DNA of 64,000 bases from positions 62,001 through 126,000 of the forward strand of contig NZ_JAHRCU010000006.1 of assembly GCF_019083995.1 (NCBI RefSeq). The letters are read 5' to 3'. Below, piece after piece: positions 27,109 to 49,036 of the stretch. Both the position numbers and the translations under genes were made by a program. How positions within the stretch are numbered: the stretch's first letter is position 1; the number at the start of each line of letters is the position of its first letter. This DNA comes from Roseococcus sp. SDR (GTDB taxonomy: Bacteria > Pseudomonadota > Alphaproteobacteria > Acetobacterales > Acetobacteraceae). The notes under the pieces are model-generated. The model did no database searches. It had not been told where the DNA came from and was given only the letters and a program-made list of their open reading frames with translations.

Positions 27109-27184
<76 letters not shown>

Positions 27185-27243
27185 CCCCCCGAATTGCAAT
27201 CAATTGTTTTTATAAGATAACTTCTCCCGAGGCTGGGGGCCGA

Positions 27244-27261
27244 CCCAACGTTGTTCCCAAC
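27244..27261 (+). repeat. Candidate integrase arm site, left
   Basis: CCCAACGTTGTTCCCAAC, 17 of 18 bases identical to 48872-48889 and in the same orientation near the opposite end of the island. Each copy lies within about 150 nt of an att core (59 nt here), as arm-type integrase sites do. It could also be incidental similarity to the integrase 5' flank. Confidence 0.45.
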
Positions 27262-27426
27262 GGGTAGGTTGCCTTGAGTTCCCCGCTACGGCTCCTAGTG
27301 CCCCCAGGTCCTCTGTTTGGGCGCTGCCTTTTCTCGGAGAGCCCCTGTCTCGTAGTTCATGCACATCTTGAGCGGCTCAGGAACCTAATTCTCCGTAGGC
27401 GCCGCGATCCGAGTGTTGCGAGCAGG

Positions 27427-27588
27427 ACGCCTTGGCCCGCGGAGCATGTGCGGATCATCCGCCTGCTGGTCCGCCGGGTGAAGATAGGGGCCGAGGGTGC
27501 GGCGGTGCGGCTGCGTCTGGATGGGCTCGGCAGCCCGGTCCGAGACCTCGCCGCCCAGGCGCCCGAGGCTGGGAGGGCAGCAGCATGA
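27427..27588 (+). pseudogene. C-terminal remnant of a large serine recombinase
   Basis: About 53 codons reading WPAEHVRIIRLLVRRVKIGA then RLRLDGLGSPVRDLAA, the pattern of the extreme C-terminus of large serine recombinases found in alphaproteobacterial elements. The rest of the gene is absent; the open frame upstream (from about 27274) shows no similarity. It ends with an ATGA overlap to the next small gene, a linkage kept from the parent locus. Probably a scar of an earlier element. Confidence 0.5.
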
Positions 27589-27962
27589 GCGATACAGCGC
27601 AGACCCTGACCGTGGTCATTCCGCTCCGGGCGAAGCCCCGGGGTGGGCGGAAGGCGATGGTCACCTCCGGCGTTCTGGCGCTGGAGCGGCGGCAGGACGT
27701 CACCCCCATCAAGGCGGTCGCTCGGGCGTCCCGCTGGCGACGGATGATGGAGGCGGGCCGCTTCGCCACGATCGACGACATCGCGGCGGCCGAGAAGATC
27801 AACTCGTCCTACCTCTCGCGCGTGCTGCGGCTGACGCTGCTGGCGCTGGACGTGGTCGAGGCGATCCTGGACGGGCGTCAGCCGGAGGGCATGACGTTGC
27901 CGGCGCTGATGGGGAGCGTAAATGCAGAATGGGCGGCGCAGCGCCTAGCGTCGAGGCTCTGA
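27585..27962 (+). CDS. Small HTH protein, partner of the recombinase remnant, 3' end probably disrupted
   Basis: 125 aa. The central part AGRFATIDDIAAAEKINSSYLSRVLRLTLLALDVVEAILDGRQPEGMTLPALM is typical of a small HTH-containing protein encoded right after large serine recombinases in alphaproteobacterial elements. The usual ending (a short ...WxxQR tail) is replaced by a different sequence that runs into an IS fragment, so the C-terminus looks altered. Probably non-functional debris with its parent recombinase. Confidence 0.5.
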   Translation: MSDTAQTLTVVIPLRAKPRGGRKAMVTSGVLALERRQDVTPIKAVARASRWRRMMEAGRFATIDDIAAAEKINSSYLSRVLRLTLLALDVVEAILDGRQPEGMTLPALMGSVNAEWAAQRLASRL

Positions 27963-28126
27963 CGGAGCACTGGCGGCGGCACTACAAGACGATCAGGCCG
28001 CAAGGTGCGCTGGGCTACCCACCGCCCGCGCCGGAAGCGCTGTTGCGCTGGCCGTCTGGCCCAGCCTACGCTCAGCGCCGGCGGGGCCAGACGGCCAAGC
28101 TGAATCCCGGGCTAAGTCTCTCGTAG
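27950..28126 (+). pseudogene. IS3-family transposase C-terminal fragment
   Basis: About 58 codons reading EALTEHWRRHYKTIRPQGAL then GYPPPAPEALLRW, the conserved end of the DDE integrase core of IS3-type OrfB proteins. No N-terminal part, OrfA or inverted repeats are visible. It is fused onto the tail of the preceding HTH gene, marking an old insertion and deletion. Confidence 0.65.
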
Positions 28127-28208
28127 CCCGTGCATCCCTACTGAAGGGCGGCTCAGCAGTGCCCAAGCTCGCTTGGCGCATTTTTGGACGCCGTGGATAT
28201 TCGAGCTG

Positions 28209-28664
28209 ATGATGCAGGACATCACCCCACGAGAGGCGATCAAGCGGCTCGAGCAGCACTTTGGCTCCCGCGAGGGAATGCTAACCCACACGCTGACGAT
28301 GCTTTCGATATCCGGGCAGCCAGCAGACGTTACCTTCTACAAGCGAAGGCCACTTATAGACGTTAAAATCAGCACGAAGATCGGCGCTGCGAAGCTCTAT
28401 GGGCTCGAAAGCCACTTGCCACGCTTACTCAACCGTATTGAGTTTTCAAACGGCGTCGTCGCAAGCCTGGGGGAGATCTGGACGGTCAACCCGATGCCGA
28501 TGGACGGCTTTTCCCCGGAGGAGTTGGCTGCGGTAGACCTTGCCCAAGGCGAGGAGCGACAAGGGCCACAAGGGGAAACGCTTCGGAAGATGATCCGAAA
28601 GACCTATCATTGCAAAAGCCGGAAAGAGACCGACTACTTTTTGCGGCGATGGATCGCATCCTAG
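28209..28664 (+). CDS. Protein of unknown function
   Basis: About 151 aa from ATG 28209 (a TTG at 28173 would add 12). Soluble, no TM or signal. Segments such as LTHTLTMLSISGQPADVTFYKRRPLIDVKIS and KMIRKTYHCKSRKETDYFLRRW look like a genuine folded protein, and codon use is lower-GC than the core genome. No family recognised. It converges on the STAND gene with only 10 nt between stops. A role linked to that defence gene is possible but unsupported. Confidence 0.5.
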   Translation: MMQDITPREAIKRLEQHFGSREGMLTHTLTMLSISGQPADVTFYKRRPLIDVKISTKIGAAKLYGLESHLPRLLNRIEFSNGVVASLGEIWTVNPMPMDGFSPEELAAVDLAQGEERQGPQGETLRKMIRKTYHCKSRKETDYFLRRWIAS

Positions 28665-28674
28665 TGAACCTAAC

Positions 28675-31413
28675 CTATGTGGATGGCCCGCCGAGTTTGG
28701 GCGGCATCTGCCACTGCGGCGGCGGGGGATTATCCTTTAGATGGGCGACTAGCGCTCGTTGATTTCGTAATTCCCATTGGCCACGAGCGTCCAACCCGCT
28801 CTCATAGGGCACTAGCCGGGCCATCTCAGCATCGGCCGCATCGAACGCGCCGCAATAAGCGAGGACGACGGCGTATTGGCTGCGCAGAGGAATAACCCGG
28901 CCGGCGAGCTTCAAACCCATAATGGTCGGCATAAGGTTTCGCTCGATGACGTCGCGGGCACCGACGTAGTCGTTTCGACCGATGAAGTCGTCGACGAGCT
29001 CCTGGCCGACTCTCGCGAACGAATCTAGCGATTGAGCCATCGAGTAGAATTTCATCGCGTGGATTGGGGCTAGGCCCGGATTGTTTCCGGTCGCCTTCAC
29101 CGCCTTAGATTGGAGATCGAGCGAGTCAGCGAGATGTTTCAAGTCGTCGGTGTGGTTCTCGCCCTTGAGCAGCGGGAAAATCTTGTCGGGGTTTTTTCCC
29201 ATCACGTCGGCTAACCTGAGTCCAAGCAGATCATAGTATTCGGCGATCAGATCAAGGGTTGCAGAGACGCACTCGTCCATCATGCCGAGTTCGAAAAGGG
29301 CGTGTGCATAATTGTACTTTGCGACCCTGAGGTGTTGTGGTGTTTGCGGCAGCACGTGGCGCAGCTCGATCATAATTCTCTTCACGGTTGCGACGTCCTT
29401 GTCGCGCGCCGCAAAGACCATTCGTTTCATGGCGACGGCGAGGCGTTCGGACTGGCCGAGATTGTTGGCCTTGATCAGTTCATCCATGCGATCGAGCTTG
29501 CTACGGATTTCCGTATCGTCGCCGGCCTTGAAATGCGCGAAGACGAGCCCGTCGAGGGCCCAAAACCGATCTTCGGCCGCAATGTCGGGACACGCAGCCG
29601 CCTCGGTCAGAAAGGTGGAAATCTCATTCATGTAGCCGAGCTCGTGGAACAGCTCGTCTGTTGCCATTTCGACCAACGGCTTCACATTGCCCAATGCCAC
29701 AAACATGCGCAGCAATAGGAATACTCGCTGACGATCGTGCTCTTTGGGTAGCGCGACCATCAAGAGGTCACGGATGGCCTCCTGCGCTGTCTTGACCGCG
29801 GCAGACCCGCAAGCGTTGAGGAACGCGCGTCCAAGCGGCCGGATAGCGTCGTGGATCTTGAAGCGGTCGACACCGAAGATCTGGATCGAGCCGCTAGAGC
29901 GCAGCCGGCGATATGCTGCCGCCGCGTCGGCGGGCGCTGTACCGAACGTCCGCTGTAGTACGGTGGTGGCTTCGGCCTGGGCGAGTGGGACATCACTTAG
30001 GCTAAGCGCCGCAACAGCACGCCGCTCATTTTCATTGAAGGTGTCGAACACGTCCGCGAGGATGAGTTCCTGCGCCGTCTCGACAATGTGCGTCCGCTCT
30101 TCAAGCGCCGTGCACAAACGGTCGACGCTTCCGTCATAGGAAGCAGCGGCAATCTTCAGCGCATTCTGAACATAGAGTGGCAGACCCGCGGTGAGCTTCA
30201 ACAATCGCTCATAGTCTGCAAAGTTGCCGCGACATCCGAGCGATGCGCCTTCTGCCGCCGCAGTTTCGTTTGACCAACCGAGCAGTCGCTCTGCTGATAT
30301 GCCGAGCGTGGCTTCAAGTTGCGCGATCGAGGGGCTCGGTTGAGCGAGCAGGACGAAGCGCAGTTGCTGGGACGCTCCAACGAGGGATGCGATGTCGCCA
30401 GGGGCGACACGGTGGGCGTTGTCGAGGACGACGGTCGCGGTGAGACCGTCATCTGCGAGGTGGCGACCAATTGCGAATAGGACCTCCGTTCCGCTAGCTC
30501 CAGGCAGGAGAATTTCCCCGAGGGTGCCGCCGCGCGAACCGAACATTCGGGCGGCCAACTCGCGCGCGACAGCGCTCGCCAGCGCAGGACCTGATATGTC
30601 CGCAACGTCGTAATAGGCCAGCCTGTCGGTGGCATGCAGAGCCATTTGCGACACCCATGACGTCTTGCCAGCGCCAGAGAAGCCGACAACGAGTCGCACG
30701 TGGTGCACGCTGGCGAGCGCCGGCTCCTGCTCCTGGGGCCGGTATCGCAGAGGCGGCGCGGGGAAGTCGTGAAGTTGCACGACAAGCTGTTCGAAGAGGT
30801 CAGGAAGGGCGCCGACCACGAATGTGTGGTTTGGGTTTGGCTCGATTCCCGCAGAAGCCGCTAAGATCCGGCCCGCGAGCTTCCAAACGAGCGTCTCCGG
30901 AGCCAAGACCGAGAACGGGAGCGTCTCTGCCGCTGCTCGGCATGCTTCGAAGGCCTCGCCAATGGTTTCCCACGGTTCGGGAAGCGCGGCGTCTGGGGAG
31001 GCACACCCCGGATGCACGAGAGTAACGTCGGCGGGCCACGCGGAATTCTTGGCGCGCTTGGCCAGGTCGGGGCCCAGTGCCGTATTTGAGACGATAACGA
31101 ACTGGCAAGCGCCGCTTCGCCGGCCCGCGACGTGTTCTGCGCGAATTTCATTGAATCGCGTGAGCGCGCCCTCGACATCACTGAACATGAGGCGTGACCC
31201 GCGGGTTTTAACCTGAGCGTAGATGCGCCTGTCGGGCAGCACCACTTCAACGTCTTCGTCGTTCTCGACGACGATATGCGTGACGCCCGAACGTGCGGCG
31301 CGGAACAAGCAGGCCGCCGCATAGAGATGCTGGTAGAGGAAGCCACGATGAACAGCTTCAATCCGAGCGAGCTGGCGAGCGTCTAGGTTGAAGGTCTCCA
31401 TTCCGCCCCGCAT
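28675..31413 (-). CDS. STAND NTPase with N-terminal nuclease-like domain (candidate Avs-type anti-phage protein)
   Basis: 912 aa multidomain protein. The N-terminal ~120 residues (GFLYQHLYAAACLFRA, VVENDEDVEVVL, YAQVKTRG) look like the DUF4297/Cap4-type restriction-nuclease fold, with acidic residues and a QxK motif (residues about 50-70). A P-loop NTPase follows: Walker A VVGFSGAGKT (244-251) and Walker B TATVVLDNAH (about 327-334). Then come a winged-helix-like region and a long alpha-helical, TPR-like C-terminal half (about 560-890) suited to ligand sensing. This nuclease-STAND-helical repeat plan is that of antiviral Avs/NACHT-like proteins. It is divergent from the Hma-type operon. The start could also be ATG 31401. 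Confidence 0.75.
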   Translation of the reverse strand: MRGGMETFNLDARQLARIEAVHRGFLYQHLYAAACLFRAARSGVTHIVVENDEDVEVVLPDRRIYAQVKTRGSRLMFSDVEGALTRFNEIRAEHVAGRRSGACQFVIVSNTALGPDLAKRAKNSAWPADVTLVHPGCASPDAALPEPWETIGEAFEACRAAAETLPFSVLAPETLVWKLAGRILAASAGIEPNPNHTFVVGALPDLFEQLVVQLHDFPAPPLRYRPQEQEPALASVHHVRLVVGFSGAGKTSWVSQMALHATDRLAYYDVADISGPALASAVARELAARMFGSRGGTLGEILLPGASGTEVLFAIGRHLADDGLTATVVLDNAHRVAPGDIASLVGASQQLRFVLLAQPSPSIAQLEATLGISAERLLGWSNETAAAEGASLGCRGNFADYERLLKLTAGLPLYVQNALKIAAASYDGSVDRLCTALEERTHIVETAQELILADVFDTFNENERRAVAALSLSDVPLAQAEATTVLQRTFGTAPADAAAAYRRLRSSGSIQIFGVDRFKIHDAIRPLGRAFLNACGSAAVKTAQEAIRDLLMVALPKEHDRQRVFLLLRMFVALGNVKPLVEMATDELFHELGYMNEISTFLTEAAACPDIAAEDRFWALDGLVFAHFKAGDDTEIRSKLDRMDELIKANNLGQSERLAVAMKRMVFAARDKDVATVKRIMIELRHVLPQTPQHLRVAKYNYAHALFELGMMDECVSATLDLIAEYYDLLGLRLADVMGKNPDKIFPLLKGENHTDDLKHLADSLDLQSKAVKATGNNPGLAPIHAMKFYSMAQSLDSFARVGQELVDDFIGRNDYVGARDVIERNLMPTIMGLKLAGRVIPLRSQYAVVLAYCGAFDAADAEMARLVPYESGLDARGQWELRNQRALVAHLKDNPPPPQWQMPPKLGGPST

Positions 31414-31596
31414 TACACCTGGAGAGGCTGGAACCGGAATTCCGCTGCCCAGGCAAGGCCCTTGAACTCAGCTGACGTTATTCCACCGTGGAGACACTTC
31501 AACGAATCGCTATCCGCAGGGTAGCATACCGCCTGGAAAAGGGGTGACAATCCGAAGGCTGCGCTCCCTCCCGATGAGGATTGGTAAAGTAGGCTC
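31414..31596. promoter_or_regulatory. Divergent intergenic region between STAND gene and DUF499 operon
   Basis: 183 nt without a gene, separating two divergent defence transcription units, so it must hold both promoters. The AAAGTAGG stretch at 31586-31593 is the likely ribosome site of the plus-strand gene. I see no clear operator palindrome. Confidence 0.4.
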
Positions 31597-34500
31597 ATGG
31601 CAATCGGCACGATAAAGCAGCTCTGTACTGCCAATGCGGTGGTAACCAGCGAAAGCTTGGTTGAGCAGGTGGCCCAGGTCGAAGACCTAGCGAAGGGAAA
31701 GATTGACGGCCGTGAATTCTTTCGCCGCAATCATTTCACCGCCGGCTTAGAACTGCTTGTCAGGAGGGGCTTCGAGCGTCTCGCCGGCAAGTCCGAGGAC
31801 GGTGCTTTCTACTTGACCCAGGCAATGGGTGGCGGCAAGACGCACAGCCTGATAGCGTTCGGCCTGCTGGCCGCCGACCCCGCCCTGCGCCGTGAGATAG
31901 TGCCCAGGATCAGCAGCGGGAACGACTTCGGCGCCGCGAAGGTGGTGATCTTCAACGGTCACCAGAACCCTGAGACCCTCCTTTGGGGCTATATCGCCGA
32001 CCAGCTCGGCCGATCAGACGTTATGGCCCCATTCTGGCGGAACGGGGCGAAGACACCCGGGGTAAACGAGTGGGTGCAGATTCTGGGCAACGAGCCCGCC
32101 CTGGTCCTTCTCGACGAGCTGCCGAGCTACCTTCAGATGGCGCAGGGCGAGAAGGTCGGCAACAGCACCCTGGGCGACCTCACCATCGGTGCCCTGGAGC
32201 GGCTCTTCAACGCGCTCCCGCAGTGCCCAAGGGCATGCGTCGTCGTCACTAACCTGAAGGATGACGTCTATCTCGAAGGCTCGGGGCAGCTGCGCACCCT
32301 CATCGAGAGCCTGACCAAGCATTACGACCGCAATGCCCAGGCGATCACGCCGGTGCAGCAGAACACGGGCGAGGTCTTCGCCATCGTTCGCAAGCGCCTG
32401 TTCGACGGCCTCCCGAACGCGGACCGGATCGACGAGATCGCCCAGGCCTATGTGGCGGCGCTGCAGAAGGCGAAGCGAGTCGATACGATCCCCACGACGC
32501 CAGAGACCTTCATCGAGCGGATCAGGGAGACCTATCCGTTCCATCCGTCAATTCGCGACATCGTCGCGCGCTTCGCCGAGAACCGAGGATATCAGAAGAC
32601 TCGCGCCCTGATCCGACTTCTGCGCCTTGCCGTCCGCGGAGCGCTCAACAGCGACGGCAACGTCTTCCTCGTCGGCCTTCAGCACCTGAACTTCAACGAT
32701 CAGGCGACGATCGAGGAAATCCGGAAGATCAATCCCGCCTACGGCAATGCTATCTCCCGCGACATCTCGGACCGCGGCAACGCGCTGGCCGAGAAGATCG
32801 ACGCGGCTGACGGCAATGCCACGGCAACCGCCGTTGCGAAGCAGCTCCTCATGTCCTCGCTGTCGGCGGCGGAGTCCCCGCTGCGTGGTCTCACGGACGG
32901 CGAGCTGATCGAGACGTTGGTCGATCCCCTCCTCGAGGTCTCGGAGATCAAGACGGCGCTGAGCCGCCTTCAGGGGCAGGCCTGGTACCTCTTCCAGGGG
33001 ATCGACCAGCGCGTTTTCTTCGGGCAGACGGCGAACGTCACCGCCGAGATCACCGAGATCTCGGCGAACATCGCCGAAGAGCAGGTTGACCAGACGCTGC
33101 GGGAGAAGTTGCGGGAGGTCTTCAAGCCACGTTCGGGCCTTCTCTACTCCGAGAAGATGGCGATTCTACCGGCGCTGGACGAAATCCAGCTCGACGACGA
33201 TCGGCCAACGCTGATCATCCTCGAACGGCCCGCCGATCGCCTGCCACAGGATTTCGTGGACTGGTGGGACAAGCAGGATCTCCGGAACCGCGTCCTGGTC
33301 CTCACCGCTGATCCGAACGCGGTCACGACGCTGCGTCACAGTGCGCGGCGCATGCGCGCCATCGGCAAAGTCGAGGAGAGGATCAAGGCGCAGCACGGCC
33401 AAGGCTCACCACAGATGGCGGAACTCGATGGCGTCCGCGATCGAGAGGCCGCCAACTTCACCAGCGCCCTGCGGGAGACGTTCAAGACCATCGTCTTCCC
33501 CGTCAGCAAGACGCTGCGCCGCGTTGACGACTTCCGGATGGAGTTCGACCGCAACGACTACTCAGGCGAACAGCAGATCATCGATACGCTGACCAAGCGC
33601 GGCAAGTTCATCCCGGGCGACCAGTTCGACGCGCAGTTCGAGAACATCCGACTGGAAGCCGAGGACCTGCTGTTCGACGCCGACGCCGTCCAGGCCTCCT
33701 CGCTTCGCCGTAATGCCGCTGTCCGATCCGGATGGTTCTGGCTGCCCAAGGCCGGCCTGGATCACCTCATCCGCACGGCATGCCAGCGAGGCTTCTGGCG
33801 CGAGAAGGAAGGCCTGGTCGCCAAGAAATGGGAGCGCGTCACCCGCGTCTCAGCCCGGCAGGACGACTTCGCCCAGGACCCGATTGCCACAGGGCGCTTC
33901 CAGCTGAATGTCACGCCGGAGGACGCGGACATCGTCTACGTCTCCGAGAGCGGTCCGCCTGATCCGGCCAAGGCGACGAAACTCGACGGACGCGTTTATG
34001 AGACCGCGGCCCCAGCGGTGTGGTTCGTTGCCGTCGACTCGAAAGGCGTCGCGAAGACGGGCGAGCCGTTCGAGTGGCGTGCACCGCTACGCGTGAAGCC
34101 CGACGTCCGTCGCGTGTCCGGCGGGTACCGCGTCGCGCTGCTGGCCATTCCGCGCGCGGCGACCATTCGCGCGACCTTCGACGACACCGATCCGCGGCAG
34201 GGTCCCGAGGTCCCGCATGCCGAGATCGACGTCCCGGCCAAGGCGAAGAAGCTGCGCGTCATCGCCGAACTGGCCGGGCGCTTCAGCGAGGAGCAGTCGG
34301 CGCCGCTCGCCACCGGCATGGACGACGCGGGCGGTTGGAACGGCGGAGCGCAGAAGGCACAGCTCAAGCCCGATGCGCCGGTGACCATGACCTCCCGCTT
34401 CGAGCCGAAGGACACGGCTGCGGCCTTCTCGGCTCTGGAACGACTGGCAAAGATGCCGGACGCCAAGGTGCTCGGCGGTGCCGTGGACCTGAACGGGACC

Positions 34501-34734
34501 AGGTCCGAGAACGACTTCCTGACGCTGCGCCTCGGCCGAGACGTGCCGATCCCCGCGGCCGCGCTGGATCAGAAGGTGAAGGAGCTCCTGGCCCTGCTCG
34601 CGGCGGATGCGCCCACGGTGAAGCTCCGCCTCGACGGCATTGCCTTTCCGTCCGGAAGGGACCTCATGGCCTTCTGCGACGCGGCGGGCGAGGATTTCGA
34701 TCGCGTCGCCTGGAAACAGGATGGATCGCCATGA
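31597..34734 (+). CDS. DUF499-family ATPase (Hma-type defence operon)
   Basis: 1045 aa AAA-like ATPase. Walker A QAMGGGKTHSL at about 75-85 (the DUF499 hallmark GGGKTH), preceded by RNHFTAGLELLVRRGFERL. Walker B is PALVLLDELPSYLQ at about 167-180; NLKDDVYLEGSGQLRTLIES and TYPFHPSIRDIVARFAENR are family segments. The C-terminal ~250 residues add beta-rich domains. It leads a four-gene operon with DUF3780, DUF1156 methylase and helicase; the next ATG overlaps its stop. The energy-consuming role in the complex is unknown. As recalled, this gene set was proposed as a putative defence system (helicase-methylase-ATPase). Confidence 0.85.
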   Translation: MAIGTIKQLCTANAVVTSESLVEQVAQVEDLAKGKIDGREFFRRNHFTAGLELLVRRGFERLAGKSEDGAFYLTQAMGGGKTHSLIAFGLLAADPALRREIVPRISSGNDFGAAKVVIFNGHQNPETLLWGYIADQLGRSDVMAPFWRNGAKTPGVNEWVQILGNEPALVLLDELPSYLQMAQGEKVGNSTLGDLTIGALERLFNALPQCPRACVVVTNLKDDVYLEGSGQLRTLIESLTKHYDRNAQAITPVQQNTGEVFAIVRKRLFDGLPNADRIDEIAQAYVAALQKAKRVDTIPTTPETFIERIRETYPFHPSIRDIVARFAENRGYQKTRALIRLLRLAVRGALNSDGNVFLVGLQHLNFNDQATIEEIRKINPAYGNAISRDISDRGNALAEKIDAADGNATATAVAKQLLMSSLSAAESPLRGLTDGELIETLVDPLLEVSEIKTALSRLQGQAWYLFQGIDQRVFFGQTANVTAEITEISANIAEEQVDQTLREKLREVFKPRSGLLYSEKMAILPALDEIQLDDDRPTLIILERPADRLPQDFVDWWDKQDLRNRVLVLTADPNAVTTLRHSARRMRAIGKVEERIKAQHGQGSPQMAELDGVRDREAANFTSALRETFKTIVFPVSKTLRRVDDFRMEFDRNDYSGEQQIIDTLTKRGKFIPGDQFDAQFENIRLEAEDLLFDADAVQASSLRRNAAVRSGWFWLPKAGLDHLIRTACQRGFWREKEGLVAKKWERVTRVSARQDDFAQDPIATGRFQLNVTPEDADIVYVSESGPPDPAKATKLDGRVYETAAPAVWFVAVDSKGVAKTGEPFEWRAPLRVKPDVRRVSGGYRVALLAIPRAATIRATFDDTDPRQGPEVPHAEIDVPAKAKKLRVIAELAGRFSEEQSAPLATGMDDAGGWNGGAQKAQLKPDAPVTMTSRFEPKDTAAAFSALERLAKMPDAKVLGGAVDLNGTRSENDFLTLRLGRDVPIPAAALDQKVKELLALLAADAPTVKLRLDGIAFPSGRDLMAFCDAAGEDFDRVAWKQDGSP

Positions 34735-35387: not shown

Positions 35388-35397
35388 TAGGACGAGC

Positions 35398-38352: not shown

Positions 38353-38380
38353 GGCGCGGCCGGCGAAGGGGGCAGGCAGG

Positions 38381-41128: not shown

Positions 41129-41516
41129 TGGCCAGATGGCAAATGTCCTCGGTTATTGAGGCGATCCGCACTTACGAGATTGATCATTTCGCCCAAAAGG
41201 TACGGATTTCGGGCGAGTGATATGCGAACCAGAGGAAGTCCCGCTCGCGCAGAAGCCGGCCTTTTAGCCGGACTTCCGAGATCCGTACTAAATCGGCCAA
41301 GTCAGGAGGTCCGGAGAGAATTGGCCTCCGGAGAGCGAAATTCGGGCATCCCCAGGCCAGGTCAGTCAACAGGTCCGCCTCGAAAACCCCAGGAAACCTG
41401 CCACTCAGCGCGGCGCGCCGTGGGGCGGAGAGCACGTCTCGTATTGAAACTGGCGGGGGAAAAGGGATTCGAATCAAGGCTACGGAAGACCGAAGACGAG
41501 GCGCTCCCGCAGATCT
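41129..41516. other. Gene-free, structured region between defence operon and small terminase
   Basis: About 390 nt between converging units with no convincing gene. It contains a long imperfect palindrome: GTACGGATTTCGG at 41200-41212 against CCGAGATCCGTAC at 41276-41288, with an inner pair GGAAGTCC (41234-41241) and GGACTTCC (41270-41277). It could be a terminator region, a folded RNA or a recombination scar. The minus-strand open frame over it (97 codons) looks spurious. Confidence 0.45.
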
Positions 41517-42032
41517 CTATCGCGCTTCCTCCGCCTCCCCGTCCACGATCTGCACGGGCTTCAGGGCGCGACCCTGCACTTCTTGGATGAGCAAGGTCAG
41601 CGGGTTCTCGGCGCTGCCTCCGACCTCGACCTTCTCCCCATAGACCCTCGGCGCCAGCTTTGCCGCTCGCCATTGCCGCGCCCAAATGCGCAGCTTCACC
41701 ACCTGCCAGTTCTCCGGCGTGGCGGCGTCGGCCATCTCGATGGTCTCATCAATCATCGCGTGCTGCTGGGCTTCGCGCGCGCGCGCGATAGTCGCTCGGA
41801 ACCCCTCGTCCGCGGCCATCTTTGCATAGACCGCTGTGCGGGCGGGGCAGTCATCCTGCGCGCACGCCTCGGTCATGCTCATCCCGCCAATGAGAAGCTG
41901 GCACAGCCGATCGACGGCCTGGGGATCATCGGGTGAAGGCTTGACGGGCGGGCGCCCTATCGGGCGGCGCTCGCGCGCTGCCTGCTGCTTGGTGCGGTCC
42001 TTGATCGGCTTCGTTGTCTTGCGCTGCGCCAT
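41517..42032 (-). CDS. terS: Phage small terminase subunit, Sf6-like
   Basis: 171 aa. After a basic N-terminus comes an HTH-like GGMSMTEACAQDDCPARTAVYAKMAADEGFR, then IARAREAQQHAMIDETIEMAD and VKLRIWARQWRAAKLAPRVYGEKVEV. This is the layout of the Sf6 small terminase family that recognises packaging sites on DNA. No large terminase, portal or capsid gene is present. In satellites a lone terS redirects the helper phage packaging motor to satellite DNA, which is the likely role here. Confidence 0.82.
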   Translation of the reverse strand: MAQRKTTKPIKDRTKQQAARERRPIGRPPVKPSPDDPQAVDRLCQLLIGGMSMTEACAQDDCPARTAVYAKMAADEGFRATIARAREAQQHAMIDETIEMADAATPENWQVVKLRIWARQWRAAKLAPRVYGEKVEVGGSAENPLTLLIQEVQGRALKPVQIVDGEAEEAR

Positions 42033-42594: not shown

Positions 42595-42603
42595 TGTGCG
42601 CCC

Positions 42604-45273
42604 TCACTGCCCGCGCTCGGCGCGGTAGCGGAGGATCGCTTCGCGCATTTCTTCCTGCGCGCGCTGCCGCCGTTCCCGTTCGGCCTGTGCTGCCATCGCA
42701 AAGGTGGTGTGCAGCTTCGGGTTCACGTGCCAGCCGGACGGATGCTTGGCGGCATTCTTCACCGGCTCCGCGCGAAGCCAGCCCATCAGTTCAAGCGTTG
42801 TCAGCACTTCAACCAGTTCTCGCCGATGCTCGGTCGCCCGCAAGGGTTGATATGCACGCATGATATCCCGGAGCGTGACCCGGCCCTTTTCGCGGGCTTC
42901 GTCGCTCGCGAGGATGAATCCCGCGATCCATCGCGCGTGCCCCGTCTGCCGCGTCAGGAACAGCAGGGCATCGGCCCGCAGCAGATGGGGCAGCAGCACC
43001 TCACGCATGTAGGCGGCGGCGCGGCGCGCGGTGTCCTCGCTCAGCACCGCCGCGACGGGCGGGTGCTCGCCTCGCGCATTGGCATCCGCGATGTTGATCA
43101 GGTGGAAGGTCAATGCCAGTCGGGCGAAGGTGCCGGGCCACTTCGCCAGCGCAGCCTTGAGTCGGGCCGAGCTATCCGGCATGGCGCCTTGCGCTTTGAG
43201 CAAGGCGTTGATGTCTTCCCGATGCCGATGCGCTTCGGCGTGGAAGACCACCGGTCGATGCTTCACCTCGGGCGCGAGTTCGACGAAGCCTGTGGAGGGC
43301 CTCAGGGTGGCCAGCGCAGGGAACAGGTCGCGATACCGCGCGAGGGCCGCCGCGTCGGGGCGTCGGTCCTCCCCGTCGCCTTGTCCGCACGGCAGGCAGT
43401 AGAGGAAGCGTTGCAGCAGCCCGTCATCCGCCGCATCCTTCGCGATGCGCTGGATGGGCTCAGGCTGGATGCCGCCGAGAACGCAGGCGGACCAGTTCGG
43501 GATGGCGAAGGTTCCACGCCCGATGCGATCCACCACGTAGCGGCCACCGTTGAAGAGCGTGAGATAGTGCGCTCGATCCGCGCCGCCTTTGCCCCCGGCC
43601 TTGTATTGATCCATGCCGGCCAGCCAACCGCTCATCTCATCCTGGCGGCACAGCACCTTGCCCGAGGGGGCGCGCTGCTTCGCGTCGTCGTCTCGGCGGA
43701 GCACTTCCGTCAGCGCTTCAACGGTCGTGCCCTCGATCAGGTACCGGTCCAGCTTCGGCGGCAGCGGCCCGATACCTGGCGGGGCCCTGTCCGCCTTGAT
43801 TGCGGCCATTTCCTCCCGCCACTTCCGCATAGCTTCGGCGTGCCGATCCCGCGCCTCGGCGTCCAGGCGCTCAATGGGCGAGGTGGCGGTCTTGAGAACG
43901 GGGGTCTTCATGATGGACGGATCACCCACCACCGCGCCCCACAGCCGGGGGCTTTCCATCCAGGTGTCGTCATGCACGCGGGGCTGAATGCGCCAGTCAT
44001 CGGGGATGACGGAGGCGGCGGCCACCACGGCGCAGAGAGCCACCGCTGCCGGGTCAACGCCCATGCGCGCAGCGGTGTCGAAGACGAAAGGCGCGAGGGC
44101 GTCGGGCAAATGATGCGGCCGCAGCACGGGCGCGCCGGTTAACTCGGTATCGCCGAGGAAGTCGACCGGGTCAGGCCAATCCCCGCCGGGAGCAGCGGCG
44201 CTTGCCTCAGTGCGCTCCCCAAGCTTTGCTCGAGCACTGGAGACAGCGCGCGGGATATCATCATAGCGGGCCTGCCAGCGGCCCGCCTGGAAACTGCCGT
44301 CCTTCAGGTCGCGGCTTTCGGGCGGGACGGCATTCATGAGTCCACGCAGGGTCAGGACTGCCTGGGCATCGGCCATGCCGCCCTTCAGATACCGCATAGC
44401 CAGCGCAGCCAGCGGCGCGTGATAGTCCTCCGCCGTCAGCACGACCCGGATCAGCTCGTCGGTTTCCCGCTCCTCTCCCGCGCCCATAGAGGCCCCTTCA
44501 CCGCTCTTGGGGTGATCGTGCAGCCCAGCGGCAGCAGCGGCCTCCTGGAGCCTGTCCAGCGCGTCCTGAAGCTCGATCTCCCGGGCGTCGTCCATGGCAA
44601 CGATGCGCGCAAGGCGGGGCGAGCCTTTTCGGTGCCAGCTACCAGGCCACCGGAGCGGATGAACAATCGGCGTGTTCGAGGCATCCGCGCCCACCAGCCG
44701 TTGCGCCACCTGCCTCGCCTGCTTCAGCCGCCCGTGATCCGCCGCTTCGCGCGTCGGTTCTGTCAGCCGCCAGTGGAGGTGCAGCTTGGGCTGCATCTCG
44801 CCCTTCTCGGGATCGAGCCACTCGCCTCCACTCGCCACCACCAACGTTGCCGGACCCAGCAGGCCTTCCAGCCGGGTGCGCGCTACCCGCGGGTTGGAAT
44901 CGCATTCGACGGAGAGCACGAGGCCGTTGGCGAGGCTGGCCTCATCCGCCTTGTCAGGGTTGTTGAAGGTGGCCGGGGGCGGGCAGAAGGTCACCGGAAA
45001 AGGCGCATTCGCCGCTCGGTGAGCGGCCTGGGTTGCGGCCTGGATCAGGGTGTTGAGATGCGGGTTGATCGAGTGAGCGCTGATCTCGAACACCCCGCCG
45101 ACATCGTCACGGAATGCCCGCAGGGAGACGAAGGTCCCAGAGTCGGCATAGCGAAACAGCGCGTCCACAAAGTGCGCAATCTCAGCGCTATCAACGGCAA
45201 GGGGCGCCACGGCATTCATCGTGCTCGCGACGTCCGGATGCTCGGAGGGCGAGGCGCCACCCTGCATGTCCAT
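42604..45273 (-). CDS. Primase/helicase-type replication protein (DUF3987)
   Basis: 889 aa. The N-terminal ~250 residues carry a RepB/primase-like region (FCPPPATFNN, LVLSVECDSNPRVARTRLE, KLHLHWRLTEP, NTPIVHPLRWPGSWHRKG) resembling the Prim-Pol domains of phage and plasmid proteins. The C-terminal half is DUF3987: LWGAVVGDPSIMKTPVLKTA (degenerate P-loop), VLCRQDEMSGWLAGMDQYK and CVLGGIQPEPIQRI. It should initiate and help drive replication of the excised island. Start ATG 45273 has GAGG about 10 nt upstream. It follows the upstream gene with no gap. Confidence 0.8.
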   Translation of the reverse strand: MDMQGGASPSEHPDVASTMNAVAPLAVDSAEIAHFVDALFRYADSGTFVSLRAFRDDVGGVFEISAHSINPHLNTLIQAATQAAHRAANAPFPVTFCPPPATFNNPDKADEASLANGLVLSVECDSNPRVARTRLEGLLGPATLVVASGGEWLDPEKGEMQPKLHLHWRLTEPTREAADHGRLKQARQVAQRLVGADASNTPIVHPLRWPGSWHRKGSPRLARIVAMDDAREIELQDALDRLQEAAAAAGLHDHPKSGEGASMGAGEERETDELIRVVLTAEDYHAPLAALAMRYLKGGMADAQAVLTLRGLMNAVPPESRDLKDGSFQAGRWQARYDDIPRAVSSARAKLGERTEASAAAPGGDWPDPVDFLGDTELTGAPVLRPHHLPDALAPFVFDTAARMGVDPAAVALCAVVAAASVIPDDWRIQPRVHDDTWMESPRLWGAVVGDPSIMKTPVLKTATSPIERLDAEARDRHAEAMRKWREEMAAIKADRAPPGIGPLPPKLDRYLIEGTTVEALTEVLRRDDDAKQRAPSGKVLCRQDEMSGWLAGMDQYKAGGKGGADRAHYLTLFNGGRYVVDRIGRGTFAIPNWSACVLGGIQPEPIQRIAKDAADDGLLQRFLYCLPCGQGDGEDRRPDAAALARYRDLFPALATLRPSTGFVELAPEVKHRPVVFHAEAHRHREDINALLKAQGAMPDSSARLKAALAKWPGTFARLALTFHLINIADANARGEHPPVAAVLSEDTARRAAAYMREVLLPHLLRADALLFLTRQTGHARWIAGFILASDEAREKGRVTLRDIMRAYQPLRATEHRRELVEVLTTLELMGWLRAEPVKNAAKHPSGWHVNPKLHTTFAMAAQAERERRQRAQEEMREAILRYRAERGQ

Positions 45274-45278
45274 CACCG

Positions 45279-45851
45279 CTAATCCTCGCGGAAAGCGGGA
45301 GGCAGCGGGCCAAGCGGGAGCCCGCGGCGAAGGCTGTCGAACAGCCCTTGGGGCGAGGTCCGGCGCAACCCGCGCATAAGCGGGCGCAGGTCGCGCTGCG
45401 CGAGGTGGCCCTCGCGGAAAAGCCGCGCGGCGACGGCGGCGATGCGATCACTCTCCTTCGTCGTCAGGATCGTCACCTCGGCCAGCAAGCGGTCGTGCAT
45501 GGCCACTGCCGCCGTGGCATCGCCGGCTGCCGCCTGCGTCGCTTTGAGCACATCCGCCCGCGCATTCGCCAGGGCGTGCACATCGCGCTCGCGGAGCCAG
45601 AAGTGCCCCGCCGGCAGGGCAGGGCGAGCCATAAAGCCCGCCAGCACCGCCGCAGCATTCAGCACGCTGCGGGCCGGGCTGCGCTGGGCGGGCAAGCGCA
45701 GGCGCCCGACCCAGCCAGCGTCCTCATGGTCATAGTCAAAGGAGCACTCGGGCGCCATGCCAAGCCAGCAGGCCGCCACGGTGGCGCCCGCCAGATCACG
45801 CGCCTCGATGTCAAAATTCGACCCCGGCGTGGGGACAACAGTGTTATTCAT
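45279..45851 (-). CDS. Island protein of unknown function
   Basis: 190 aa, soluble, Ala/Arg-rich and mostly helical. It has ECSFDYDHEDAGWVGRLRLP at the N-terminus and a helical middle (HALANARADVLKATQAAAGD). It ends 5 nt before the replication gene start and is in the same direction, so it probably shares its transcript. No family recognised. A replication accessory or DNA-binding role is only a positional guess. Confidence 0.5.
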   Translation of the reverse strand: MNNTVVPTPGSNFDIEARDLAGATVAACWLGMAPECSFDYDHEDAGWVGRLRLPAQRSPARSVLNAAAVLAGFMARPALPAGHFWLRERDVHALANARADVLKATQAAAGDATAAVAMHDRLLAEVTILTTKESDRIAAVAARLFREGHLAQRDLRPLMRGLRRTSPQGLFDSLRRGLPLGPLPPAFRED

Positions 45852-45961
45852 TTTCCGACTCCAATGAGATGGAGCCGGAGCGATTGGCCGTAGCGTTCAG
45901 CGCGGCAGGTCTGGTAGAAGGCGGGTGTCAACAACACCAACTACTAGACCGCGATGCTTTC

Positions 45962-45993
45962 CGCCGGGGCCGCAAGGCTCCGGCGTTTTGTTT
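45962..45993 (+). terminator. Rho-independent terminator on the plus strand
   Basis: CGCCGGGGCC - GCAA - GGCTCCGGCG (one mismatched pair) followed by TTTTGTTT. The stable tetraloop stem and U-tract read only on the plus strand. All neighbouring genes are on the minus strand, so it would end an unannotated plus-strand transcript from the 45,852-45,961 gap or antisense from further left. Confidence 0.7.
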
Positions 45994-46252
45994 AGGCGCG
46001 GTCGCGCTTCCAGGGCGGAATGCGGCCCGGCACCTCGATGCGCGACTTCGGCTCGGTCTCGGCGCTAGTAACATCGGGCTTCGACGAGACGTGGCCGACA
46101 CCCGGCACGTAGCCGCACATCAAGCACTCGGTCGTGCGGCCCGACATGACCGGGTCGAGCGCGCCGCAGTCGTGGCAGACGGGGAACGGGAGATCGTCCG
46201 GGTAGTTGTCCACGGGACGGGGCGCGGGGCGCGGAGCGGTGATCTTGCTCAT
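45992..46252 (-). CDS. Small zinc-ribbon protein
   Basis: 86 aa. Two CxxC knuckles, FPVCHDCGALDP and TECLMCGYVPG, predict a zinc ribbon; both tails are Pro- and charge-rich and probably disordered. Start ATG 46252 overlaps the stop of the HTH gene (ATGA), so the two are made together. Its stop overlaps the U-tract of the plus-strand terminator. Possible regulator or replication accessory of the island. Confidence 0.6.
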   Translation of the reverse strand: MSKITAPRPAPRPVDNYPDDLPFPVCHDCGALDPVMSGRTTECLMCGYVPGVGHVSSKPDVTSAETEPKSRIEVPGRIPPWKRDRA

Positions 46253-46485
46253 TGCGCGGCCTCCGCGCCGACGAGGCGCTTAAGATCGGCGGCGGGGATC
46301 AGCGTACGGCCGGCGATACGGACCACCTTGAGTTTGCCCTCGTTCGCGCGGCGGCGAAGGGAGGAAACGCTCAGGCCGGTGATATGCGCACCTTGCGCCC
46401 AGGAGTAGGCCAAAGCGTTGGTGGGCGGCTCGGCCGGTCGCTTTTCCGGTTTATTGCCGCGATTCTTCGCGGGGTTGGCTTGCAT
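46249..46485 (-). CDS. AlpA/excisionase-like HTH protein
   Basis: 78 aa. The winged-helix core AYSWAQGAHITGLSVSSLRR is followed by RANEGKLKVVRIAGRTLIPAADLKRLVG, the MerR-like excisionase/AlpA pattern: HTH then an arm ending in a basic strand. In satellites such proteins switch on excision and replication. It resembles the protein at 51034-51261 (SVS(S/T)LRRRA(N/K)(E/D)G). A run of 12-nt repeats lies about 85-120 nt upstream. Confidence 0.75.
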   Translation of the reverse strand: MQANPAKNRGNKPEKRPAEPPTNALAYSWAQGAHITGLSVSSLRRRANEGKLKVVRIAGRTLIPAADLKRLVGAEAAQ

Positions 46486-46571
46486 GGCGGATGCTCCTGC
46501 CCCCTGCTGGGAGCGCTTGAAGGACCGCGACGCACCCTGCGCCGCGTACCCTCAAAAGGAGCCATCAGAAA

Positions 46572-46604
46572 TTCGCGGTCTATTTCGCGGTCTATTTCGC
46601 GGTC
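46572..46604. repeat. Three 12-nt tandem repeats upstream of the HTH gene
   Basis: TTCGCGGTC repeats at 46572, 46584 and 46596 with exact 12-nt period (spacer TAT). They overlap the last codons and stop of the upstream gene, where they encode DREIDREI, and lie upstream of the HTH gene start at 46485. They could be regulator-binding iterons. Confidence 0.5.
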
Positions 46605-47425
46605 GGCGCAATGCGCGGCTCTCGCTTTGCCCCGCGCCTGTGCCATTTTTTCGATGTGGCCTCTCGACGGATTTTGCGGAGCTTGTCTCGCGAGATTTCT
46701 CCTGCGAAATGTTCCCGCGCAGCTTTGAGGTCTACAGCCTCGCTCGGAGTCTTTGCGTCACCGGGCCATGTGCCCTCGCGTAGCTTGAACCAAGCCCGCA
46801 CGTTCCGCTCAGTCGGCTCGGGCCTAGGCTCCGCGCCGAGTTGTGCCCCAGGACGCGAAGGGAGGGTCGAAGCGCTGTGCTCGACAGGCGTTTCCTTTTG
46901 CTCAGATGCCTGTTGGGGAATGCCGGCGATATCGGATGGGGCGAGCGCAGGATTCGCGGTTGGGGTAGTTGGCCCGCCAGTGGCGACAGCTTCCTGTTGG
47001 GTTGTGCGCAAGTGCTCCGGGAGGCCGCGTATTGCTTTCTGTGCCCATCGTTCAACCTCGCCCCAACGAACCTCAATGGCGCTGCGATGGCCGCCAATAT
47101 TCATGACGGTTCCGTCCGTCCAATCGACCTTGGCTAGAACCCAATCGTGAACGGAGACGCGGCCGCCACGCTCTTCCATGCTCGCCGGAAATCGCCTTTT
47201 AGCAGGGTCAGCAGATGACGCGGGGATGCCCAGGAAGTCCCACCGGCTCCGCCTCATGTTCCAACCGGCAATGCGGTGTACCACCGCATGGCGTTCAACG
47301 GCGTATTGAAGCTGCCGGCAGATACTATCCAATCCCTCGCGGGGAAAATCGGGGCCTCCCAGGAGTTCGCGTAGCAGGTTCATAGCCTTTGGCAGAGACA
47401 CCCAACTCGGAATGGCTTCGTTCAT
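46592..47425 (-). CDS. Island protein of unknown function
   Basis: 277 aa from ATG 47425, with a GGGAGG site about 8 nt upstream. The N-terminal half (SWVSLPKAMNLLRELLGG, WDFLGIPASSADPAKRRFPA, VEVRWGEVERWAQK-like segment) looks folded. A Pro/Ala/Thr-rich linker (about 150-200) follows, then a C-terminal ERNVRAWFKLREGTW with helical basic KAAREHFAGEISRDKLRKIRREA. No family recognised. It sits between integrase and the HTH gene, where satellites often encode regulators. Confidence 0.55.
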   Translation of the reverse strand: MNEAIPSWVSLPKAMNLLRELLGGPDFPREGLDSICRQLQYAVERHAVVHRIAGWNMRRSRWDFLGIPASSADPAKRRFPASMEERGGRVSVHDWVLAKVDWTDGTVMNIGGHRSAIEVRWGEVERWAQKAIRGLPEHLRTTQQEAVATGGPTTPTANPALAPSDIAGIPQQASEQKETPVEHSASTLPSRPGAQLGAEPRPEPTERNVRAWFKLREGTWPGDAKTPSEAVDLKAAREHFAGEISRDKLRKIRREATSKKWHRRGAKREPRIAPTAK

Positions 47426-47523
47426 CTGATCGCGCCTCCCCCCAACGCATCGCAAAAAAGCGCGCGGGCCAGCAGTTTGCGGCCACCGTGACTCCTGGTA
47501 CGCCCTGCCCCACCGAAGATGCC

Positions 47524-48819
47524 TCAGCCTGCCTGCCGGGAGCGGGCTTGGTCCAGGCTCACAATGTCAGCGGCGGGCGCGGCGCAGAACGCTCCCCAAG
47601 CTTGCATCAACGGCCGGCGACGCTCCAGCAGGTCAGAGCGCGCGTAGGCGGCTTCGACGCCACGGACGACATGTGCCAATGCGCGCTCGGCCACCTCTCG
47701 CCCCTCCGGGCGGGTCTCGCCGCACCAGTCGCGGAACGCGCTACGAAAGCCATGGGGGACGATCACCCGCCCCGCCAGGTCGCGCCAGCGAGGCGGTTCG
47801 TCCTCATCCAGCCCATCCGTCGCCATGCCGCGCACCAGCATCGTCAGCGCCATGTCGGACAAGGGATTATTCTGGGTGTTCGGAAAGATCACGTCTTTCG
47901 CGCGCGGCTTCTCGACAGTCGCCCTGTTCAGCACATCCATGGCAGCGTCGGACAGCGGTACGCGGTGCATCTCCCCCGCCTTCATGCGCGCCGCTGGCAC
48001 CGTCCAGACGCGGGCCGCCATGTCGATTTCACCCCAGGTCGCACCCCGGACCTCCCCGGTGCGCGCTGCCGTGAGGATGGCAAACTCCAGCGCCAAGGCT
48101 GCCATGCCACGCCGCCCCCTCAACGCCACTAGGAACTCGGGGACCTGGGGCCAGGGGAGGGCGGGCTGACGCTGTACTGGGGCGAGCTTCGAGGGGTTGG
48201 GCAGCAACTCGGATAGATGCCCCCGCCAGCGGGCAGGATTCTCCCCCTGACGCCATTTCAGGGCATGAGCGTGGTCAAGGACAGTCTCGATCCTCCCTCG
48301 CAGCCTGGAGGCAGTCTCCGGTGTCTTGGCCCAGATGGGGCGCAGCACCCGCATCACGTCGTCACCTGCGACCTCGGACACGGGTAGCTCGCCCAGGATC
48401 GGCAAGGCGTGCTTCTCCAGCGTCGCCCGCCACTGCCACTTATGCTTTTCGTTCTTCCAGACACCCTCGCGCGAGGCGATAGCGGATTCCATGGCGGCCT
48501 TGAAGGTTCGATCTTTGCTGGCCGACTCGGTCGCCTGATGCACCTCGCGCTGCCGCTCACGGATTGGATCACGCCCCGCCTTGATGGACTGCCGGGCGGC
48601 GTCGGCAGCTTCTCGCGCGGCCTTGAGGGAAACGTCCGGGTAGCCACCCAATGACATGTCCCGCTGGCGCCCATGAAGGCGATAGCGCAGAACCCAGCCG
48701 GCCCGACCGTCAGCGCGGATATGCAAATGCAGCCCGCCCCCATCGGTGTGTCGCCCGACCGTATGGCGATCCTTTGCGGTGAGGGCTTCGACCGTCTTTG
48801 CTGTGAGCTTTCCGGCCAT
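47524..48819 (-). CDS. int: Tyrosine-type integrase
   Basis: 431 aa phage-type integrase of the P4-like family with an N-terminal DUF4102-like arm-binding part (LTAKTVEALTAKDRHTVGRH, MSLGGYPDVSLKAAREAADA). The catalytic residues are readable: Arg in AARTGEVRGATW, His/Arg in VPHGFRSAFRDW, His in RALAHVV and the nucleophile Tyr in AAYARSDL (about residue 390). Start ATG 48819 has GGAGG 10 nt upstream. It lies 203 nt from attR and catalyses integration into the tRNA-Ala 3' end. Confidence 0.94.
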   Translation of the reverse strand: MAGKLTAKTVEALTAKDRHTVGRHTDGGGLHLHIRADGRAGWVLRYRLHGRQRDMSLGGYPDVSLKAAREAADAARQSIKAGRDPIRERQREVHQATESASKDRTFKAAMESAIASREGVWKNEKHKWQWRATLEKHALPILGELPVSEVAGDDVMRVLRPIWAKTPETASRLRGRIETVLDHAHALKWRQGENPARWRGHLSELLPNPSKLAPVQRQPALPWPQVPEFLVALRGRRGMAALALEFAILTAARTGEVRGATWGEIDMAARVWTVPAARMKAGEMHRVPLSDAAMDVLNRATVEKPRAKDVIFPNTQNNPLSDMALTMLVRGMATDGLDEDEPPRWRDLAGRVIVPHGFRSAFRDWCGETRPEGREVAERALAHVVRGVEAAYARSDLLERRRPLMQAWGAFCAAPAADIVSLDQARSRQAG

Positions 48820-48871
48820 GTCCCAACAACCTCCACACGCTCCGCCGAAACGGTAGGGCGTTGGGTCCGTT

Positions 48872-48889
48872 CCCAACGTCGTTCCCAAC
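48872..48889 (+). repeat. Candidate integrase arm site, right
   Basis: CCCAACGTCGTTCCCAAC, one base different from 27244-27261. A further TTGGGTCCGTTCCC lies just before it. It is located between the integrase gene and attR. Confidence 0.45.
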
Positions 48890-49021
48890 ATGGGTGATGG
48901 ATTGGGGTGATGCAAGCTGAAACGGCGTGAAGCAGACTTTCTTTCAAGTAGCTGTTTAAAGGGATATTTATTGGCCTATCGTGACGTTCGGTGAGGCACC
49001 CTGAAGTATCGTTTCGGTGGA

Positions 49022-49036
49022 CCTCAGCTCCACCAC
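49022..49036 (+). repeat. attR: duplicated tRNA-Ala 3' end
   Basis: CCTCAGCTCCACCAC, identical to the tRNA-Ala 3' end at 27171-27185. Together with its left flank it forms a small palindrome (GGTGGA...TCCACC). It marks the right edge of the island. Confidence 0.9.

Follow-up and report, generated by a model that had tools for sequence, protein, structure and literature searches.

A candidate phage satellite in Roseococcus sp. SDR carries a small terminase that looks chimeric and points to Bcep22-like phages as candidate helpers

The helper phage is known for few phage satellites; in hosts that are not well studied, the usual basis for a guess is a prophage nearby. The pac-type pathogenicity islands of Staphylococcus aureus (SaPIs) encode their own small terminase subunit (TerS), which redirects the large subunit (TerL) of the helper phage to island DNA. 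Both the SaPI TerS and the Rpp and Ppi proteins illustrate that satellites act at the TerS packaging step (PMC6739421; here and for all papers cited, within the excerpts available). Here we describe an island at a tRNA-Ala gene in a 64,000-nt stretch of contig NZ_JAHRCU010000006.1 (C6:62001-126000) from the 5.0-Mb genome of Roseococcus sp. SDR (Acetobacteraceae; 62 contigs); this stretch is called the window, and positions refer to it unless stated otherwise. The island, unit 1 (27186-49036; 21,851 bp), has inserted precisely at tRNA-Ala and carries genes for a predicted integrase, an excisionase/AlpA-like helix-turn-helix (HTH) protein, a DUF3987 primase-helicase and TerS. We consider it probable, with moderate confidence, that unit 1 is an integrated phage satellite, the chimeric TerS of which would hand its DNA to the TerL of a Bcep22-like phage. 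What is new here is the apparently chimeric TerS together with the candidate helper group that it names.

By its gene list unit 1 appears nearer to the phage-inducible chromosomal minimalist islands (PICMIs) of Vibrionaceae, plus a terS gene, than to the phage-inducible chromosomal islands (PICIs) of Gram-negative bacteria. With PICMI it shares the core of an integrase, an AlpA/HTH_17 regulator and a DUF3987-type primase as well as defence cargo, no capsid-remodelling genes having been found (PMC10803314). With the SatelliteFinder model of PICMI, PF00589 and PF13148 scored above cut-off and PF12728 just below the Pfam cut-off, which we counted as present. However, unit 1 lies at tRNA-Ala and not at fis, has an alphaproteobacterial host, measures ~22 kb as against ~6 kb, and carries terS, which is not reported for PICMI in the excerpt. 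Its likeness to Gram-negative PICIs (PMC6092414) consists in the order of integrase, regulator, replication gene and terS, a specific attachment (att) site, the lack of structural genes among those found, and cargo between terS and one end; both the primase-type replication gene and terS, which some PICIs have, are present. Strict PICI membership, as implied by the first-pass annotation, is nevertheless not supported, since the HTH_17 protein is without an AlpA match and neither a PICI-exclusive gene nor a helper has been shown. Moreover, unit 1 exceeds the ~15 kb of PICIs (a weak criterion, this size being only typical), has a TerS that looks chimeric, and is known here from its sequence. The general hallmarks of a satellite, namely site-specific integration, att repeats and an own integrase, are present, and no complete set of structural genes was found, either among the proteins scanned or with 26 Bcep22-like queries.

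The TerS of unit 1 (41517..42032, minus strand) has a body of the Sf6 type (PF20901, E 3.3e-32; PHROG 1482, E 9.8e-29), and ends in the island-type tail (ENPLTLLIQEVQGRALKP; last 38 residues plus stop, 41517..41633, minus strand). When the four TerS proteins from the window and from a second genome of the genus (G015) were aligned, they fell into two pairs with different bodies and a near-identical C-terminal stretch; the body from the G015 sister island (locus L082) matched PHROG 309 (E 2e-48), and this second TerS type, with the tail, occurs in two sister islands, of which one also encodes a Bcep22-like virion protein. A 39-residue tail query retrieved five TerS proteins in 3 of 397 genomes of the host family, all from these islands or reduced copies of them, and had no match among plasmids. 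Against 50,697 phage records the same query yielded 10 records at E<=1 (best 1e-3, 43-57% identical), all annotated as terminase small subunit and all belonging to Bcep22-like podophages of 61-63 kb, while the reversed tail matched no phage record. These records represent six phages, namely the Burkholderia phages BcepMigl, BcepIL02, DC1, CSP3 and JC1 and the Pseudomonas phage Itty13. In all five phages that were opened the match was located at the C-terminus, and none of 2000 shuffled tails scored as well for BcepIL02, BcepMigl, DC1, CSP3, Itty13 or PEp14.

The body of the island TerS is unlike that of the Bcep22-like TerS, as shuffled sequences did equally well in 140 (BcepIL02), 68 (Itty13), 111 (POI1126) and 231 (PEp14) of 500 trials. 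Among viral TerS proteins with island-type bodies, none carried the tail at z>=4 (0 of 58 Sf6-like and 0 of 14 PHROG-309-like proteins), while among the Bcep22-like viral TerS (best 79 of 398 relatives) 19 did, the six nearest BcepIL02 being the clearest. Because the tail matches this phage clade and the body does not, the island TerS look like chimeras of an own body and a Bcep22-clade tail. This distinguishes unit 1 from the TerS redirection of pac SaPIs (PMC6739421), in that its putative docking tail resembles that of a phage group to whose TerS body its own body shows no likeness. Rough pairwise estimates of the ratio of nonsynonymous to synonymous substitution rates (dN/dS; Nei-Gojobori method, NG86) gave 0.165 and 0.123 for terS, indicating purifying selection, with ranges of 0.12-0.22 for the whole gene and 0.12-0.26 for the tail, and these low values over the tail suggest that it has been kept by selection on the protein.

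A separate clue is provided by the G015 sister island, which encodes a virion protein (PHROG 8003, E 1.8e-130) with matches in 35 phage records, eight of them from Burkholderia. Among the 20 matches listed, 19 are phages of 57.4-63.0 kb of the Bcep22-like group and one is a 41-kb Microcystis phage; the phages listed include SopranoGao and LASTA of Klebsiella, PEp14 and Pavtok of Erwinia, Parlo of Serratia, Skulduggery of Pseudomonas, POI1126 of Ochrobactrum and PBC5 of Sinorhizobium. The virion-associated protein gp66 of BcepIL02 is 46% identical to the G015 protein over 307 residues (range in the Bcep22 group, 46-52%), and a tblastn search with 26 Bcep22-like phage proteins against 344 kb of fetched and window DNA gave its sole match in the G015 island. 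The annotations of PEp14 and POI1126 and the JC1 paper link these phages (Lessievirus, Ittyvirus, Pavtokvirus, Lastavirus and others) as one group, which has the TerS tail in common with the islands and the virion protein in common with that of G015. The members of the group differ from the islands in being whole phages of 57-63 kb that possess terL, portal and capsid genes, and their TerS body falls into a different family (Terminase_2 for JC1). JC1 and related phages have circularly permuted genomes in which a long distance separates terS from terL, and they are inferred to package probably by headful (PMC9144972); with terS remote from terL, a lone terS is less odd in this group.

According to the satellite reading, infection by a helper phage, or its induction, would switch on the HTH gene, whereupon the island would excise and replicate as concatemers. 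The Sf6-type body of TerS would recognise the island DNA, the Bcep22-type tail would dock on the helper TerL, and the helper motor would then load heads with island DNA. Between such trips, the Type-2 operon related to bacteriophage exclusion (BREX) and a putative STAND/Cap4-like NTPase would shield their host, probably from phages that do not serve as helper. The TerS of lambda and that of P22 both bind TerL through their C-terminal region (PMC9611059), and PICMI DNA enters heads of full size in concatemeric form (PMC10803314). At 20.8-21.9 kb, each of the two intact islands has roughly a third of the length of a Bcep22-like genome (61-63 kb), so that three copies (62.5-65.6 kb) would fit approximately one headful, which is arithmetic only and not evidence for a packaging form. 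In addition, the tail may represent a portable tag of helper specificity, in which one TerL-docking tail is kept and the DNA-recognition body is swapped, two TerS types having been seen; we regard this proposal as evenly balanced.

Several observations weigh against the satellite reading. Excision, packaging, transfer and the helper of unit 1 are all predicted from sequence, and in P22 loss of the TerS C-terminus also abolishes DNA binding (PMC9611059). Two TerS bodies of G015 belong to another family, yet one cross-matches PHROG 1482 weakly (E 0.0064). In POI1126, the Ochrobactrum phage and alphaproteobacterial member of the group, the tail is doubtful (96 of 2000 shuffles reach its score), an open reading frame (ORF) of PBC5 guessed to be terS was negative for the tail (710 of 2000 shuffles as good), and only 8 of the 79 best of 398 Bcep22-like viral TerS reached z>=6. 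No Bcep22-like phage of the host family was found, the family genomes not having been searched with a Bcep22 terL, and the own genome of unit 1 lacks terL of PF03237 and PF03354, the only terL families searched there. None of the virome contigs contained the DUF3987 protein or the 190-residue island protein J. Finally, the island relative found in Pseudoroseomonas cervicalis ATCC 49957 includes a terL that belongs to a different family, and TerS has no match in G010, the genome with the closest DUF3987 relative (81%).

The integration target, a tRNA-Ala (CGC) gene (27109..27184, plus strand; ARAGORN; Rfam tRNA, 70.1 bits), abuts the empty site in two genomes of the genus, G005 and G019. The 15-bp direct repeats that the first-pass annotation had placed at this gene were recovered as CCTCAGCTCCACCAC, a copy of the tRNA-Ala 3' end present at 27171 (tRNA-side att copy, 27171..27185, plus strand) and at 49022 (middle att copy at the boundary of units 1 and 2, 49022..49036, plus strand), with ~6e-5 copies per 64 kb expected by chance. 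The whole 5.0-Mb genome contains three copies (C6 89171, 111022 and 139074), all forward and within 50 kb, and no occurrence of the reversed pattern used as a control. The third copy, at C6:139074, corresponds to window-equivalent position 77074, beyond the 64-kb window and 28 kb past the middle copy. Three att copies on the same strand with an integrase in each interval suggest two tandem islands, namely unit 1 (GC 0.645 relative to 0.708 in the first 27 kb of the window) and unit 2 (49037 to window-equivalent 77088; 28,052 bp), each ending on the right in a tyrosine integrase (45% identity between the two enzymes). What had been described as one island is thus the tRNA-proximal of two, with an internal tRNA-Ser-type att seam behind terS. 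Empty tRNA-Ala sites in sister strains, set beforehand as a test, were found in G005 and G019 (7% estimated contamination each), in which both flanks are adjacent and joined via the tRNA-Ala gene and a single att copy. The left flank, folD, is present in 18 of 21 same-genus genomes, and the protein right of unit 2 has relatives of >=96% identity in G005, G019 and G015 among these 21; in G015 the two flanks are far apart and hence uninformative. The empty site suggests that the insertion of units 1 and 2 was precise and, on the scale of the genus, recent.

Relatives of the DUF3987 protein were detected in 5 of 60 related genomes and relatives of TerS in 3 of 60 (gene calls in the fetched loci were made by a simple custom script, not a standard caller). 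The sister island of G015 lies at tRNA-Ser(GGA) between copies of a 16-bp repeat 20,835 bp apart, a repeat only slightly longer than chance repeats listed alongside it (15 and 14 bp) that was counted as att because one copy is the tRNA-Ser end. The sister island begins with an integrase (50% identical) and continues with two ORFs, an HTH_17 protein, a 190-residue-protein relative, a DUF3987/primase-type protein, TerS, RtcB and the virion protein, followed by cargo of hsdS, PtuA, PtuB and hsdM (Septu plus type I restriction-modification); the RtcB-type RNA ligase gene is located at L082:9902-11239, between terS and the virion protein gene. This recurrence of the plan at another tRNA, together with the TerS tail pointing to a helper group, strengthened the satellite interpretation of the first-pass annotation. 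Two further loci of G015, L080 and L083, hold tail-bearing terS genes in smaller surroundings, L080 with two integrase genes. In P. cervicalis, identities to unit 1 were 46% for the integrase, 67% and 71% for the 86- and 190-residue proteins, 61% for the N-terminal part of the replication protein and 85% for TerS. Behind its Sf6-type terS come part of a methyltransferase gene, a second terS, of the P27 type, and the PF03354-family terL (L114:11374-13923); no portal or capsid was found among the proteins scanned, nor were the ends of this island found.

The 81% DUF3987 relative of G010 is held by an island between two tRNA-Thr copies (G010:C8, L075 11084 to L076 7232), one protein of which resembles a tape-measure protein by eye, no family search having been made. 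A further DUF3987 relative (62% over 55% of the query) occurs on the 10.7-kb replicon RHOAph of Rhodovastum atsumiense (L151; NZ_OW485609.1), with neighbouring genes for a prohead protease fused to a major capsid protein, for ParA and for a toxin-antitoxin pair; this is possibly a capsid-bearing satellite maintained as a plasmid.

The alternative that survives best, although we consider it unlikely, is that unit 1 represents a decayed prophage or a phage-derived genomic island, in which the integrase, the replication gene and terS are left-overs and which persists, unpackaged, for its defence cargo. A lone terS can indeed be debris, but the gene is intact with dN/dS of 0.12-0.17, and debris would hardly account for one tail on two kinds of TerS body. 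While the reduced copies L080 and L083 beside the intact island in G015, the recombinase and transposase remnants at the left end of unit 1, and the P. cervicalis relative, with terS plus a terL of another family, would fit decay, the same plan at similar length at a different tRNA in G015 and the precise att pair with empty sites are not easily reconciled with it.

Unit 1 itself is probably composite. Directly behind terS lies a seam (41199..41475, minus strand) in which 25 nt duplicating the 3' end of a tRNA-Ser (41451-41475) are joined to a conserved arm of ~250 nt, and the same joint, interrupted there, occurs behind terS of P. cervicalis. The ~250-nt stretch was matched in 84 of 397 family genomes, with at most two candidates scored per genome, and of 29 further copies that were fetched, 15 lie immediately at tRNA-Ser genes, which have several anticodons, and two lie beside an integrase. 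The stretch thus looks like the attachment end of a widespread family of integrative elements targeting tRNA-Ser. A seam of this type between terS and cargo suggests that the core (41.5-49.0 kb) and the cargo block (27.2-41.45 kb) probably have separate histories. The idea of a single clean 21.9-kb satellite was set aside because of this seam, shared with P. cervicalis. On account of its conservation behind terS, the stretch was also considered as a packaging site, which was dropped in view of its occurrence across the family, half of the fetched copies lying behind tRNA-Ser genes; a search for RNA genes within it gave sub-threshold chance matches only.

From the right, the genes of unit 1 are the integrase, a 287-residue ORF, HTH_17, the 86- and 190-residue proteins, DUF3987 and TerS. 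Profile matches agree with the earlier naming of the integrase (47524..48915, minus strand; tyrosine type, PF00589 above cut-off), the DUF3987 primase/helicase-type replication protein (42604..45276, minus strand; PF13148, E 1.7e-51; PHROG 2373 DNA helicase, E 2.8e-15) and the Sf6-like small terminase. The AlpA-like HTH protein stood in part: the excisionase/AlpA-like regulator (46249..46485, minus strand) matches PHROG 66 'excisionase and transcriptional regulator' (E 4.8e-5), but reaches 26.2 bits for HTH_17 (PF12728) at a cut-off of 27 and has no match to the Phage_AlpA profile. The 287-residue ORF (46592..47455, minus strand) was not picked by the custom gene caller and weakly resembles PHROG 16781, a 'tail assembly chaperone' (E 9.6e-5). 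This was the one phage-structural match, and the scan of unit 1 proteins revealed no gene for a large terminase, a portal or a capsid, in keeping with the first-pass annotation. The 86-residue (45992..46252, minus strand) and 190-residue (protein J; 45279..45851, minus strand) proteins are conserved in the islands, the latter with strong relatives only in G000, G015 and G383 among the 397 genomes, two more hits being marginal. Near the replication gene a search for iterons revealed two-copy repeat families only, without a clear array.

Left of the seam unit 1 contains a four-gene operon, a putative STAND protein, a 151-residue protein (28209..28664, plus strand) without family match, and remnants (27433..28027, plus strand) of a serine-recombinase C-terminus (27433-27558), an associated 125-residue protein (27585-27962) and an rve_3-type transposase end (~27947-28027), which gave 76% and 71% identity in tblastn and, for rve_3, a match below cut-off (E 4.8e-4). 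The defence cargo accordingly lies, as had been proposed, between terS and one att site, that on the tRNA side. The operon of DUF499, DUF3780, DUF1156 and helicase genes was confirmed at 31597-41128 (9.5 kb), all on the plus strand. It encodes a DUF499 AAA+ ATPase (31597..34734; PADLOC DUF499, E 8.3e-207; Pfam, E 5e-26), the marker protein DUF3780 (34734..35387; Pfam, E 5.3e-44; PADLOC, E 2.3e-39), a DUF1156 N6-methyltransferase (35398..38352; PADLOC DUF1156_MTase, E 0, 1210 bits) and a PLD/HKD nuclease with SNF2 helicase (38381..41128; PADLOC PLD_Helicase, E 4.8e-277; PLDc_2, SNF2, Helicase_C). The four PADLOC matches span nearly the full length of the proteins, while the HmaA, HmaB and HmaC profiles were far weaker (E 9.5e-35, 2e-21 and 8.2e-48). 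With its DUF499 ATPase, methyltransferase, HKD helicase and stand-alone DUF3780, the operon is, by these predicted components, the already described Type-2 BREX-related (DUF499) system and not Hma proper. Although the triad of helicase, methylase and ATPase is common to both, the Hma label was rejected on account of the DUF3780 gene and of the better-matching profiles. In the described Type-2 set DUF3780 occurs in 98% and the HKD-helicase in 83% of its taxa (PMC12839542), and nothing of substance in the excerpt distinguishes it from the operon except the carrier.

The methyltransferase is found on 95 plasmid records and in no phage record; 10 of 12 among the matches listed are named 'anti-phage-associated DUF1156', three of these ten also having DUF3780 beside the methyltransferase, and one of the 12 is without annotation. 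The STAND NTPase of the first-pass annotation could be upheld only as a putative one: the large NTPase ORF (28675..31413, minus strand), with an N-terminal Cap4/LmuA-like nuclease-type region, falls short of the cut-offs in its matches to AAA_22 (E 8.1e-5) and to Cap4_nuclease (E 2.8e-4), and also matches PADLOC LmuA (E 4.1e-6). Its relatives occur on 54 plasmid records at up to 75% identity, 24 of them covering >=80%; none was found among virome contigs, and no solved structure matched by sequence.

The presence of defence systems on the island would also fit a role of the chimeric TerS chiefly as an anti-phage weapon that competes for the Bcep22-like TerL and blocks packaging, island transfer being incidental, and satellites do block phage packaging at TerS, for instance through Ppi and Rpp (PMC6739421). 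Even though TerS retains both body and tail, an intact DNA-binding body would be unnecessary for a decoy, and transfer is what one would expect from the integrase and replication genes conserved together with terS; we therefore regard this role as improbable. That unit 1 is an integrative element moved otherwise, for example by conjugative help or natural uptake, and unrelated to phage packaging seems very improbable, since, despite the plasmid relatives of both defence modules and the absence of the methyltransferase from phage records, a link to phages is indicated by terS and by the sister island's virion protein, and the annotated genes showed neither a relaxase nor an oriT, for which no dedicated search was made.

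The adjoining unit 2 (49037..64000 in the window, no strand assigned) continues past the window end to window-equivalent 77088 (L073:1-13088). It encodes a phage-type replication initiator (50170-51012), an HTH_17 protein (51034-51237) and a type I restriction-modification system composed of hsdM (53734-55311), hsdS (55298-56545), a RhuM-type gene (56542-57573) and hsdR (57570-60689), in addition to an alginate-export protein, a kdp potassium transport operon, sensor genes and its own integrase.

In the openly licensed literature, subscription papers being outside the search, no paper joined phage satellites with Acetobacteraceae or combined phage satellites, Alphaproteobacteria and the terminase small subunit, and none among the matches listed tied Bcep22-like phages or Roseomonas to satellites, as judged by title or counts. 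Two separate sequence clues, the TerS tail and the captured virion protein, name a candidate helper group for unit 1 without a prophage in the genome. If the tail is a portable tag, different islands of this satellite lineage of Roseomonas-like bacteria would each steer one and the same phage motor to the DNA of that island, and the helper would be predictable from a tail of 30 residues even without an isolated helper phage. If the satellite reading is true, the tail would offer a way to match satellites to helpers and would explain how a satellite can change its DNA specificity while keeping its motor, and large BREX-related defence operons could travel as satellite cargo in Alphaproteobacteria.

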